Source of the DNA: Mesodorylaimus sp. YZB2_4
Taxonomy: Eukaryota > Nematoda > Enoplea > Dorylaimida > Dorylaimidae
Direction: 5' to 3'
Length of the DNA: 64,000 nucleotides
Assembly: GCA_030248295.1 (NCBI GenBank)
Contig: JASANH010000167.1
Span: 1-64,000 of the forward strand
Part shown: positions 2,999 to 51,885 of the stretch, piece by piece
How positions within the stretch are numbered: position 1 is the stretch's first letter
How the letters are laid out: the number at the start of each line of letters is the position of its first letter
The notes under the pieces: generated by a model
Seen by the model: only the letters and a program-made list of their open reading frames with translations
Database searches by the model: none
What the model was told of the DNA's origin: nothing
Translations under genes and position numbers: made by a program

Positions 2999-4672
2999 AT
3001 GGCTGCCGTAGGGATTCTGCTGTATGTCATCACTGGCCTGATCTTGACCGGAGTGGCAGTGTGGGACGTGATGATCATCATCACAGATTTCGTCACCGAT
3101 AACCAAATGACTTCGGTCAGTGTGGGCAACATCACCGATACTTTCCCCTTCATCAAGCAAGCCAGAGTTTGTCTAAGTTATGACTCAATTTTTATGGAAT
3201 GGCCATCATCGTACATGGGTTCATCAGACGAGTACGACAAAGCCGAGGCCAAGGTCATCGATACTATCGTAGCCAGTAGTCAGGTCAATGGGTCATTCTG
3301 GGACAAAGATAACACACAAATCCCAGAGCCAGTCGACTCGACAGACCTACTGAATCTGTTTATGTTTTACAAAAAGATGGTTTCCTTAGAAAAGGCCAAC
3401 GTTTTTCCAAAAATAACCTTAAATCTCGACCCAACCAACATGACCATTTTCGACTCGTTTCTCCAAAGCCAACGTCCACTGCGGCTACTGCGTGAACTGT
3501 GGGCCGAAGTAAAAACATTACTCGTCCAGATGGTTCAAGTCAAAGGCTCCATTGTCGATTATGATAAAAGCTACCAGAAAATGGTTCTCGACAAGGTCGA
3601 CTTTGTGAATGGGATATTCAAGCCTTGTTTCCCAATCACAATTACTCAAGACCTGAGTGTGCACACGGCGGAAATTGATTACAGTTTTGCCTTAACTGCG
3701 ATGACATACACTCCGAATCCGAGATTGCCTAGCACGGCCATGTATGGTGGTACTAATCTTAGTGTGCAGATCAATGGCGAATGGCTGCCCATTGAAAAAA
3801 AATCCAATGCTATGTCAATGATGAGTCCTGGCAAAACAGTCTATACAATTCTCATATCCAATAATGGGCTTTTTGATAAATCAGAATTCCCACCATGCAT
3901 GAACGATTTTGTGAACCACCAAGACTGTTTGGAAAATGTGCGAGCGAAGAGTGTTGCCGACATTTGTGGATGCAAACGTTTCACGGACTTGGCAAAATGG
4001 GCGATGCTGAATGACACAGACTTGGAATCGATCAATAACGGGACCCTGTGCACGGCAACCCTGTACCAGCAATGCCTCGAAAGTAAGGGGGATCAGATCG
4101 AACAAGCATTGAAGAAGAGGACGTGCGAACCGTGCGTCCAAATGAAGAACGCCTACCAAATTACGGCTGTTGATGAGCCTTACAGTTCCGATGCAAAGTT
4201 TCGCGTCAAATTCCGCTGTATCGATCGTTCCTACGTCCACTTTCAAGAAAAACCGCAGTACAGTATGACCCAGCTGATCTCTCAAGTTGGTGGTGACCTA
4301 GGCCTGTACACGGGTTTTAGTATGCTGTGGATTTTACAAGTGTTTTTGTTCTTTTTCAATGGCTATCGACAAAGCAGGCAGTCGAGAGTGGCGCATGGAA
4401 CCAAAGGCAAAACTGGTGGCGGCTGCTGTGGAGTGTTCGCGAAGTACCTGAATCGGACATTGTTGGATGAGCATCCGAGAGAACACGACATGGCCGTAGC
4501 TTGGGAACAGGATAAAGGGATCCGAAATCAGGTAGGAGTCATGGGAATGCGGCTCGATCGGATGGACGAATCATTTGGAAACATGAATGATAGATTGGGT
4601 TCTGTGGAGGGAAAGCTGGACGCGTTGCTGGGGAGACAGTACGCCCAGAGGAGAGGGCATCAGAAATATTAA
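2999..4672 (+). CDS. DEG/ENaC-family sodium channel subunit
   Basis: This 557-residue open frame encodes an amiloride-sensitive sodium channel-type subunit. Members form trimeric cation channels in the plasma membrane, gated by peptides, protons or force. The first hydrophobic segment is at residues 3-30. The large extracellular part includes a cysteine-rich stretch (FPPCMNDF, CGCKRF, YQQCLESK, CEPC), followed by the pre-TM2 and pore motif GDLGLYTGFSMLW, which carries the family GxS filter as GFS. After TM2 comes a basic, Cys/Gly-rich cytoplasmic tail with a short heptad-like stretch ending near residue 540. The cytoplasmic N-terminus with its conserved His-Gly motif is absent. A TGA codon directly precedes the ATG, so either a 5' exon is missing, perhaps joined at an AG near 3010, or the start is wrong. 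No intron is visible in the rest. The family is clear, the ligand unknown. Confidence 0.85.
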   Translation: MAAVGILLYVITGLILTGVAVWDVMIIITDFVTDNQMTSVSVGNITDTFPFIKQARVCLSYDSIFMEWPSSYMGSSDEYDKAEAKVIDTIVASSQVNGSFWDKDNTQIPEPVDSTDLLNLFMFYKKMVSLEKANVFPKITLNLDPTNMTIFDSFLQSQRPLRLLRELWAEVKTLLVQMVQVKGSIVDYDKSYQKMVLDKVDFVNGIFKPCFPITITQDLSVHTAEIDYSFALTAMTYTPNPRLPSTAMYGGTNLSVQINGEWLPIEKKSNAMSMMSPGKTVYTILISNNGLFDKSEFPPCMNDFVNHQDCLENVRAKSVADICGCKRFTDLAKWAMLNDTDLESINNGTLCTATLYQQCLESKGDQIEQALKKRTCEPCVQMKNAYQITAVDEPYSSDAKFRVKFRCIDRSYVHFQEKPQYSMTQLISQVGGDLGLYTGFSMLWILQVFLFFFNGYRQSRQSRVAHGTKGKTGGGCCGVFAKYLNRTLLDEHPREHDMAVAWEQDKGIRNQVGVMGMRLDRMDESFGNMNDRLGSVEGKLDALLGRQYAQRRGHQKY

Positions 4673-13330: not shown

Positions 13331-13625
13331 TCCTGGACTGCACACCGACTTCCTCGGACAATGGCGGGTGTACTGTGAACCCTGTCACATGGTGACATGG
13401 TGAGTCATCCACGACCTAGCCTGGAAGGTGCAACTCTCAGCTCCTGATGAGGGTTCGTGATTCGAACCACGCACGTGTGGACGGCTGGGTTATCACAAGG
13501 GTCACCGAGGGATTATGGCTCGCAAACCGACCTCCGTGGGGATCGAACCTTGGACGAGTCCAGCCATTCGCTCCCAAGCAATGCGGAGAGACGCATGCCG
13601 AACCACTGCACCACCAGGGCCGCCA
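13300..13625 (-). mobile_element. tRNA-derived SINE-like element, family F4
   Basis: Read on the minus strand it opens with GGTGGTGCAGTGGTTCGGCA (an A-box-like head), then AAGGTTCGATCCCCA (a B-box match) and the conserved GGTCGGTTTGCGAGCCATAA. The GAGGTGCTCCTAG tail lies near 13308. The same order is seen at 17873-18215 (plus) and 50915-51183 (minus). Confidence 0.7.
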
Positions 13626-17872: not shown

Positions 17873-18215
17873 CCCCGAGATGGTGCAGCCAGCGAGTCGG
17901 CATTCCCCTACACGTATTGCTTGAGAGCGAGTGGCAGGTTCGATCCCCGGTGATGGAGGTCGGTTTGCGAACCATAAACCCCCGCTGACCTTGCACGCCA
18001 TACTGTGGGTGACTCACCCGATTCCAGAGAGGTGCTCCAAGTGGAAAAGCGGAAGCCAAACGAGAAGACAGTCTCGGCTGTCGAACACCGACAAGGTTCA
18101 AAGCCCGCCCGCCATCGTCCGAGGAAGTCGGTGTCCATTCTAGAATGCCCTCGGTTGGAGGTGCTCCTAGTGAAGGTAGCTGCTGTGAGAGCAGGCCACC
18201 TCACGGCCTCGCTTA
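17873..18215 (+). mobile_element. tRNA-derived SINE-like element, family F4 (fullest copy)
   Basis: The head has GATGGTGCAGCCAGCGAGTC, then CAGGTTCGATCCCCGG (B box), then GGTCGGTTTGCGAACCATAA. The body has GTCGAACACCGACAAGGTTC and GAGGTGCTCCTAGTG near the 3' end. This order matches 13300-13625 and 50915-51183 in inverse orientation. The second half also matches sequence abutting the LINE remnant at 8036-8175. Confidence 0.7.
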
Positions 18216-48785: not shown

Positions 48786-51700
48786 TTAACGTCTGCGACC
48801 AAATCTAAAACAGTCAAGTCCAGTCCAATCAAGCACGCGTGGGGAATGCGACTGGTGCTTACCGCGGACGTTGCATACTTCCGAGCACAGTTTCCAGGTC
48901 CATGAGCGAATTGCCTCGCTTATCGCTGCAAAGAAAGAGAGCGGTTACAGTAAGCCAGGTATGTTAGGCATTATTACTTGTAGAGAAGGTAGTCGTCGAG
49001 CGAGTCATCGCGAATGAAAGCGCGTTTACCAAATCTCGGTCTTTGCATTGAACCCAAAGCGCTCTCCAGTTCGTTCATGTAGCCGGGTTGACTGGCCCGC
49101 TTCCAGTCTTCGAACGAGATCGAACGTTTTTGTATGCTGAAAATAAAATCTTGTTAGAAATCATCATCGTTTTATTCCTCACCCAAGCATATGAAGTCAC
49201 ACTTATGCATAGTATATGGTGAGGAATACCTCGGCTGTGCATGGCGGTGCATAAGCATGAATACGAAGACAGTTTGGTGTACCAGGTAATAAGGATACAT
49301 ATGAATATAGACTGGTAATGTCCCCATGTACTCTTACTGTAGATTGTATTTCATATGCTTTGATATATATAGTATGCGCATGAGCTCAAGGGTATCATAT
49401 TTATTACCCAGCTAGTTGCATCCCTAAATTTGTATCACATTGCACACCCCCTGGCCAAAGTTGTGCACTCTTATTCTACAGTACAGATGTCCATTCTTTA
49501 AAAGGAGTTTTTGAGCGGCAAAATTTGACGAAATTCCACCATAGGGTCATCGGATACCATGTTTCCCATACTGGGGTCAAAAATCATCGAAATCCATCGA
49601 ACGGTTCTCAAATCGTGCCGAATAACCCCCCCCCCCGAACTGTATTGACTGTATAGACACGGCCTCCACCATGAAGGCACCTGGATCTTGGAAGATCAGA
49701 ACGAGAGAATATTAGACAGACTCATCAGTATGCTGGTGCTTCTTCATATATATAACCAGTGACATATGGCACGTTTCAGGCACGGATGAATTCTGATCAC
49801 CATGCTAGCAACGTCAAAAGCCAACTGTATGATGCTCGTGCTAGAGGACTGTTTATGAGCAAAGTGCTGTATTTTTGCACGGGCATTGTACAGTTACTAC
49901 TTGATTACTATCACATGAGCGAGGTTATTTCGTAGCACTAGCATTGTGCCATGTGTTTTTCGTTATATATAAAAAGAAGCATCAGCATACTGAGTCTGCC
50001 TAGCGGACTGTGAAATACTGTAGTAATTTTCGAGAACGCTGATGTCGCAACCTTACGTTCCTGTTCTGATCTCACAACTCGCACGCGTGGCCAGGGGCCG
50101 TATCCGCAACGGTCCCCTTCAAGCAAAGTGCCCTTTCTCACGACAGTGCCTTGTCTAGGCCGAAAGGACCCACACTGGGAGCCCCTTTCGCGGTATCCGC
50201 AATGGTGCGTTTCGTTGGACAGGGACCATTGTGGACACGGCCCCAGGTGCTTTCATGGTGGATGCCGTGTCTATACAGAACGCGTTGTTGTGACAGTTGT
50301 AGACCAATGGTTCAGAGCAAATCTGGCGTGTTAGTGTACGTTTCGAAAGTGTCTGCTCGGAGGTACCCTCATGAATAGGCATTTTTGTGATGACAGGAAA
50401 AAGCGCAATAAAAAAATGAAGAATTGGGCGCACAAAATGACAGAGGAACCCATTCTTCATAATTCATGTTCACTTATGGGGGATGTTGGTGAGGGGCTGA
50501 TGGATTTCAGAATGGCCCAACCCGCAAGTAGGGCATATATTTTTTAGGACCTATTCGAGAACATATCGACCAAAGATTGTTGATATTGGCCATATGAAGG
50601 GTCGATACCGGACAATCATTTGACAAATCAGAGGAATAGTGACAGCTTAGACTTCGTATATGATCAAATTTTCAAATTTTGTTGACGTTTCAGCGTTGTC
50701 GGCGATCATCTGCTCAGGGAAAATCAGTGGAAACGGCTAACAGGAAACTTTAACAGAACAGGGTAAGTCAAGAAGACTGAAACAGGGTTTATCTTTCTTT
50801 TCTTGATAAAAATTTTGTGGGCCAGAGTCCGTTTTTCGCCTCTGGCTGGTTAGAAGTCCCACCTTCTAAGCCCGGCTGTGCGGGGATTAGCTCACACAGC
50901 AGCGTCCCTGTGTGCGTCTTCACTGGGAGCACCTCTACACGAGGGCAGCTTCTGGCGATAGCGGGTGCTGTTACCCTGCTACTGTGCGACAGCTGAGACT
51001 GTCCCCTCGGGTTCTGTCTCGGACCCTCCCATTAGTACCAGGGGATTCACAGCCTGGCATGCACAGTCAGTGAGGATTATGGCTCGCAAACCGACCTTCA
51101 TCACTGGGGATCGAACCCCCAGCCGCTCGCCACCAAGCAATGCGGCTAGGCGAATGCCGAACCGCTGCACCACCGCGACCGACTAGGTCCATCTTTTGAC
51201 TCAAACTGACCAGCACATGCCAGTCAATATTGCCAGCACTGACCTAACCTAGTCCAACCTGATGCTCTCACGAGGGTCCTCAGTTCCAAGCCCGAAACTT
51301 GACATTTTCTGACACCGTTTGAATATAGCATCAGATGAGCAGAATGTACATAAATGCGACTCACGCATTACACGAGGCATTTTGCGATCCATGAGGGACT
51401 CAGTACGCTGATGCTTCTTCTTATGTATAACCAAAACACAAGATATGCGCGTAGTAGTGCATGAGCAGTGTTTATCATATGGATGGAACTCGGTTTAGGG
51501 GAGCCAGGTAGACAAGAATGCCTAAACTGTAGCCTCATACGCTGCCATGTTGGACAGAGCATCTGAGCCCCTCTACTGTATACGTAACCACGCCAGGGAC
51601 GGCACCATGTCGTAGCTATCTCTGGTGCAAGTCTGTGCAAGATATTTTTCAGATTATGCGGGGCTTCTGGGGAGTGTGACCTGATCTTATAGTCCCACCC

Positions 51701-51885
51701 TTTGTTGGTCCAGCAGAAAGGCAGTTCAGTAACGCACATTGCATCCCTACCCCTCGCACTGTCCAGCAAACTTACCGTTTGTTGGAGTCTTGTTCTTCGT
51801 TTGACACGACCGTTTGCGTGAATAAAGCCAACGCGTATACGCAAACGAATAGGGCGCAATAATAAGTTTTACCAGTCACGGCCAT
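48786..51885 (-). CDS. Neuropeptide precursor with two RPRFamide peptides (NPF/FLP-33-like)
   Basis: Four exons, read 51885-51776, 49136-48978, 48925-48863, 48804-48786, with GT-AG ends and all three introns in phase 2. They give a 116-residue protein. Residues 1-28 are a signal peptide (MAVTGKTYYCALFVCVYALA...). Dibasic KR sites at 36-37, 40-41, 49-50, 74-75 and 92-93 and a terminal RRR bracket two related peptides. The first ends ELESALGSMQRPRFG at 73, the second ends DLETVLGSMQRPRFG at 113; each Gly donates the C-terminal amide. The last intron splits the Arg codon of the second RPRF between its second and third bases, the intron position known for NPY/NPF genes. RPRFamide C-termini occur in invertebrate neuropeptide F, and nematode FLP-33 ends KPRFG. 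The peptides should be secreted from neurons and act on a class A receptor. Introns 2 and 3 are only 52 and 58 nt; intron 1 is 2.6 kb and contains an F3 repeat. Confidence 0.85.
49495..49660 (-). repeat. Dispersed repeat F3 inside an intron
   Basis: The reverse complement shares TCGATGGATTTCGATGATTT, TGACCCCAGTATGGG and GGTATCCGATGACCC with the F3 copy at 19795-20070. It contains an 11-base C tract (49626-49636) and lies in intron 1 of the RPRFamide gene. Confidence 0.6.
50915..51183 (-). mobile_element. tRNA-derived SINE-like element, family F4, inside an intron
   Basis: The minus strand starts GTCGCGGTGGTGCAGCGGTT, followed by GGGGGTTCGATCCCCAGTGA (B box) and GGTCGGTTTGCGAGCCATAA. It lies within intron 1 of the RPRFamide precursor gene, in the same orientation as that gene. 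Confidence 0.7.

Follow-up and report, generated by a model that had tools for sequence, protein, structure and literature searches.

In the 64-kb window studied here (the whole stretch of DNA that was analysed, 64,000 nucleotides), we found a minus-strand gene whose 116-residue product holds two RPRFamide-type peptides, and it is best explained, in our judgement with good probability, as an NPF-type precursor gene with a duplicated peptide-coding exon. The two-peptide gene model is confirmed on the DNA, and its expression is predicted. The product is assembled from four exons (110, 159, 63 and 19 nt) and three introns, with the ATG at 51885 and a terminal stop that ends at 48786. All three introns are GT-AG and all are phase 2 (2639, 52 and 58 nt). 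A sequence-only reading had proposed a four-exon gene of 116 residues at 48786-51885 with phase-2 junctions, and our reassembly reached the same end points. The features, from the start codon onwards, are as follows.

51776..51885, minus strand: exon 1, which opens with the ATG and encodes MAVTGKTYYCALFVCVYALALFTQTVVSNEEQDSNK (a hydrophobic, signal-like stretch and a spacer); its last two bases, CG, belong to a split Arg codon
49137..51775, minus strand: intron 1, 2639 nt, GTAAGT..TTTTCAG, phase 2
48978..49136, minus strand: exon 2, 159 nt, symmetric 2-2, with IQKR, copy 1 of the peptide SISFEDWKRASQPGYMNELESALGSMQRPRF-G-KR and a spacer AFIRDDSLDDYLLY
48926..48977, minus strand: intron 2, 52 nt, phase 2
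48863..48925, minus strand: exon 3, 63 nt, symmetric 2-2, with DKR, copy 2 of the peptide GNSLMDLETVLGSMQRP and CG of the terminal Arg codon
48805..48862, minus strand: intron 3, 58 nt, phase 2, within the terminal Arg codon (between CG and A)
48786..48804, minus strand: exon 4, 19 nt, with the last base of Arg, then Phe, the Gly amide donor, RRR and the stop TAA

Copy 2 is complete across exons 3 and 4 as GNSLMDLETVLGSMQRPRF-G-RRR, followed by the stop, and LGSMQRPRFG is common to both copies. The RPRFGKR of copy 1 is uninterrupted, with its terminal Arg codon intact within exon 2, whereas the same codon of copy 2 is cut between CG and A by the last intron (48863/48804). This arrangement of two peptides, the second with a split Arg codon and the first without, had been described in the sequence-only reading and can be read directly from the exons. 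The signal-like start in exon 1 was called by eye, and together with the phase and the splice sites it is what supports the first join, from exon 1 into exon 2. A further exon near 50700 was dropped, since the direct junction of exons 1 and 2 is in phase 2. The frame is kept when either exon 2 or exon 3 is skipped, so that the combinations 1-3-4 and 1-2-4 are both in frame, and exons 1-3-4 alone have the layout of an ordinary one-peptide NPF gene. When intron 2 is retained, the frame closes at once (..LLYK and stop), which gives a one-peptide precursor.

The long first intron also contains repeats. An old repeat at about 51048-51174 is 77-79% identical to 17890-18007 and 13510-13615, and is probably a SINE, with a stretch that looks tRNA-like by eye. 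The tRNA scan of the 64-kb window called no gene, including at this repeat, and Rfam at the gathering threshold returned nothing for the window. In addition, short inverted repeats of MITE-like form, 80-89% alike, lie in the same intron at 49713-49772, 49946-50002 and 51397-51440.

The two downstream joins of the model were examined against other splice choices within set ranges. From copy 1 to copy 2, among GT/AG pairs with introns of at least 30 nt, a single pair gives an open frame, and it is the pair of the model. After copy 2, with donors up to 40 nt from CAACGTCCGCG and acceptors 30-1500 nt further on, a single pair yields R[FY]G with a basic residue, which is again that of the model. 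The pattern of exon 4 (AG, then N TTY GGN [KR][KR]) has two matches across the 64 kb; each is on the minus strand, and one of them is exon 4 itself. Furthermore, the longest peptide present twice within a 400-nt stretch has 8 residues, and 1000 dinucleotide shuffles reached 6 at most (the longest shared peptide was 3 residues in 467 of them, 4 in 494, 5 in 35 and 6 in 4). A chance origin of the gene model is unlikely.

The two copies are related to each other. Exons 2 and 3 share [ED]LE..LGSMQRPRFG, both are symmetric, and each opens by completing a split codon and has KR one or two codons further on. Over 15 aligned codons, 6 are identical, 6 have synonymous changes and 3 have conservative replacements; therefore, the copies look old and constrained and not like an assembly duplicate, and we read them as an old duplication that selection has maintained. 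That two related copies are present and that only one has the Arg-codon intron had been recognised earlier, and both points are seen in exons 2-4. The simplest reading would be an internal duplication of an NPF exon, with one copy keeping the ancestral intron. In the simplest history, the Arg intron was lost from copy 1 or was never carried there; copy 2 with exon 4 would retain the ancestral NPF gene structure, and exon 2, which lacks the Arg-codon intron, would be the copy that was added.

The NPF-like character proposed from the sequence is supported by the peptide ends and by the Arg-codon intron. Both copies have an RxRF/Yamide-type end with Gly and basic residues (RPRF-G-KR and RPRF-G-RRR). 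A phase-2 intron in the terminal Arg codon is published for NPY/NPF genes (PMC8536682 among the sources), and this position, which the sequence-only reading had taken as a mark of the family, matches copy 2 but not copy 1. If the dibasic sites are cut, the predicted peptides have 31 or 22 residues for copy 1 and 19 for copy 2, and copy 2 has 37 if its inner KR is left uncut. In the literature, a length of 36-40 residues is given as typical of NPY/NPF, annelid NPFs range from 29 to 43 residues (PMC6389622), and crab NPFs are reported at 67 and 70 residues. The C-terminal extension with a further intron, described as typical of NPY/NPF, is absent from the present gene, where the stop stands directly after GRRR. 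By eye, the paired Tyr and most of the N-terminal prolines of NPY/NPF are also absent from both copies. The profile search of the 116-residue protein that the sequence-only reading had proposed gave no placement with NPF/NPY: with E values of up to 10 allowed, Pfam returned no family. Profiles can miss peptides that are short and divergent. No relative of the precursor was found among PDB sequences, and a scan of IMG/VR with the 116-residue precursor gave six pattern-matching stretches, none of them confirmed.

The residues upstream of RxRF were scored for similarity against shuffles, with p values uncorrected for the number of tests. The NPF/NPY panel consisted of six peptides, four of them as provisional sequences; PMC3794971 gives the human NPY sequence and the complete Aedes NPF. 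Against this panel (four of its sequences provisional), the joint p was 0.006 for copy 1 and 0.0017 for copy 2, and the best single NPF match was that of Drosophila, one of the provisional sequences (p 0.004 for copy 1 and 0.00015 for copy 2). Other single comparisons of copy 2 gave p 0.03 with krill, 0.18 with Moniezia and 0.16 with human NPY. Across both copies, Moniezia NPF and human NPY gave p 0.07-0.18, which is not significant; over a longer stretch, these two gave p 0.013 each for copy 1, and 0.08 and 0.10 for copy 2. With the FLP/PrRP panel taken as a whole, copy 1 gave p 0.036 and copy 2 gave p 0.092. For copy 1, the score was 11 against the second FLP-34 peptide and 10 against the best NPF; as that FLP-34 score is no lower than the best NPF score, and given the panel p, NPF and FLP-34 are not separated for this copy. 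The upstream resemblance to NPF thus appears to lie above shuffles, as a weak signal, and copy 1 seems about as like FLP-34. Starfish PrRP, taken as a negative, gave p 0.89 for copy 1 and 0.79 for copy 2. A PrRP identity was set aside, since starfish PrRP resembles neither copy and the intron phase differs: the intron of PrRP genes is in phase 1 and mostly interrupts the N-terminal or central portion of the peptide.

The strongest competitor, which we consider somewhat less than evenly probable, is a narrower form of the NPF reading in which the gene is a divergent orthologue of nematode flp-34 and shares an old duplication with it. PMC11658156 regards flp-34 as the NPY/NPF orthologue and describes its apparent loss in clade 2. 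For flp-34, PMC4058706 lists two RxRF/Yamide peptides, ALNRDSLVASLNNAERLRFa and ADISTFASAINNAGRLRYa, and the second is marked 'non-FLP' in one table there; the present gene likewise has two RxRF/Yamide peptides. The FLP-34 gene of C. elegans is reported with an Arg-codon intron (PMC8536682), a flp-8-type gene lies about 11 kb from the two-peptide gene, and position -9 is Leu or Ile, and position -13 Leu or Phe, in FLP-34 and the present copies alike, as judged by eye. In the similarity scores, copy 1 against the two FLP-34 peptides gave p 0.04 and 0.04, and 0.06 and 0.03 over the longer stretch. However, the values for copy 2 were not significant (p 0.11 and 0.13, and 0.20 and 0.16 over the longer stretch), both present copies have RPRF in place of the RLRF/RLRY of flp-34, and one paper lists two precursor isoforms for flp-34. 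The sequence-only reading had called two peptides in one precursor a non-standard layout, which holds for classical NPF, but flp-34 of nematodes is listed with two peptides.

We regard it as possible, but clearly on the doubtful side, that the gene comes from a lineage of nematodes or nematomorphs unsampled for flp genes and is an intermediate between the one-peptide NPF and the flp-34 of crown nematodes, which has two peptides. If so, the gene gained a second NPF exon by internal duplication, only one copy kept the old intron, and splicing of the symmetric phase-2 exons could release either copy alone or both together. The RPRFamide ends, the diagnostic intron and the internal duplicate would link NPF to the two-peptide flp-34. 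One paper calls the existence or loss of NPF/NPY orthologues in nematodes an open question, and PMC11658156 asks for genome data from clades 1-5 and from Nematomorpha.

An FLP-33 type of gene, that is, a nematode NPY-like peptide ending in ..GIQKPRFamide and not NPF proper, is an unlikely identity. The FLP-33 peptide APLEGFEDMSGFLRTIDGIQKPRFa has FED and Q[RK]PRF in common with copy 1 by eye, but outside the last four residues the similarity is near shuffle level (p 0.08-0.11). An FLP-33 precursor typically has one peptide, against the two copies found here, which end in RPRFamide and not in KPRFamide with the FLP-33 sequence. Finally, the long, repeat-bearing first intron might suggest an inactive or mis-assembled remnant, with unexpressed exons or with one copy as an assembly duplicate, but this is highly improbable against the open frames, clean splice sites, conserved peptides and six synonymous differences between the copies.

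For the NPF-type precursor that we prefer, a course of action can be proposed from what is established in NPF/NPY-type families. Guided by its signal-like start, the precursor would enter the secretory pathway, where convertases would be expected to cut at KR and RRR and the glycines would be converted to C-terminal amides. In this way, two RPRFamide peptides, one of 22 or 31 residues and one of 19, would be released together. They would presumably act on G-protein-coupled receptors of the NPF/NPY type, NPR-11-like if the host is a nematode. The basic cleavage sites and the Gly amide donors on which this proposal draws are present in the frames of both copies.

Several other genes of the window were examined. 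The flp-8-like gene, on the same minus strand, is made of exons 63446-63363, 63304-63182 and 63117-63077, which join in frame and hold five KNEFVRFG copies; no signal-peptide exon was found for this gene (63446-63077). The ORF with three of these copies matches the Pfam FMRFamide-related family. In nematodes, flp-8 encodes the peptide KNEF[I/V]RFa (PMC4058706); this gene and three other flp genes were found in every nematode clade studied (PMC11658156). KNEFVRF strings had no match in the open-licence literature. A short ORF at 46970-46767, minus strand, opens with a signal-like segment, continues with TGPWHPNFYLRGGRAFNDEH.. and carries a GKR site ahead of a GT; it had no Pfam match and is perhaps a third peptide precursor. 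Its GGRAF is reminiscent of nematode nlp-21 peptides. A DEG/ENaC-type channel is encoded by a single ORF at 2999-4672, plus strand (Pfam ASC), and its nearest solved structure is an FMRFamide-gated channel, at a weak level (E 1.6e-4). A 7TM receptor of 339 aa is also a single ORF, at 15462-14443 on the minus strand; its Pfam matches are 7tm_1 and, at lower strength, the family of Srx chemoreceptors, and its nearest solved structure is somatostatin receptor 1 (E 4e-7). Indirectly, the flp-8-like gene and this receptor make it probable that the host is a nematode or belongs to a group close to nematodes. On the plus strand, the segment 40460-42721 has two ORFs with ankyrin repeats and then a BTB domain (Pfam); the gene resembles ABTB2. 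Earlier exons of this gene may lie upstream of 40460, and none there has a Pfam match above the cut-off.

Two RxRF/Yamide peptides from one gene, as in flp-34, and the duplication of whole NPF genes are already known. Among the matches listed in the open-licence literature, no NPF precursor had RPRFamide in both of two copies, and none had the family's Arg-codon intron in a single copy only, which is a weak negative. In that literature, the GSMQRPRF-type strings of the two copies had no match, and a search for two NPF peptides matched one paper, on locust NPF. We suggest that an intron in one copy only could serve as a datable marker for a conserved single-peptide gene gaining a second ligand.

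Overall, the gene can be compared with four known systems. With flp-34 it shares two RxRF/Yamide peptides per gene as listed, a reported Arg-codon intron and a peptide length of 18-19 residues, like that of copy 2; it differs in that flp-34 has RLRF/RLRY and the similarity is weak, and the two peptides and the intron of flp-34 are reported at the level of the gene. The RMRFamide and KPRFamide ends of flp-27 and flp-33 resemble RPRFamide, and the FLP-27 gene has an Arg-codon intron, but these genes typically have one peptide per precursor, and FLP-33 is without significant upstream similarity. Classical bilaterian NPF/NPY resembles the present gene in the signal-like start, the RPRFamide with its Gly-basic site and the phase-2 intron in the terminal Arg; unlike it, the present gene has two peptides, one without the intron, which are shorter if the dibasic sites are cut, and has neither the paired Tyr nor the C-terminal extension. 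Whole NPF genes are also duplicated in annelids (PMC6389622). In the tandem NPF genes of the Pacific abalone, the whole gene was duplicated and the Arg-codon intron conserved (PMC8536682), in contrast to the exon duplicated inside one gene here.
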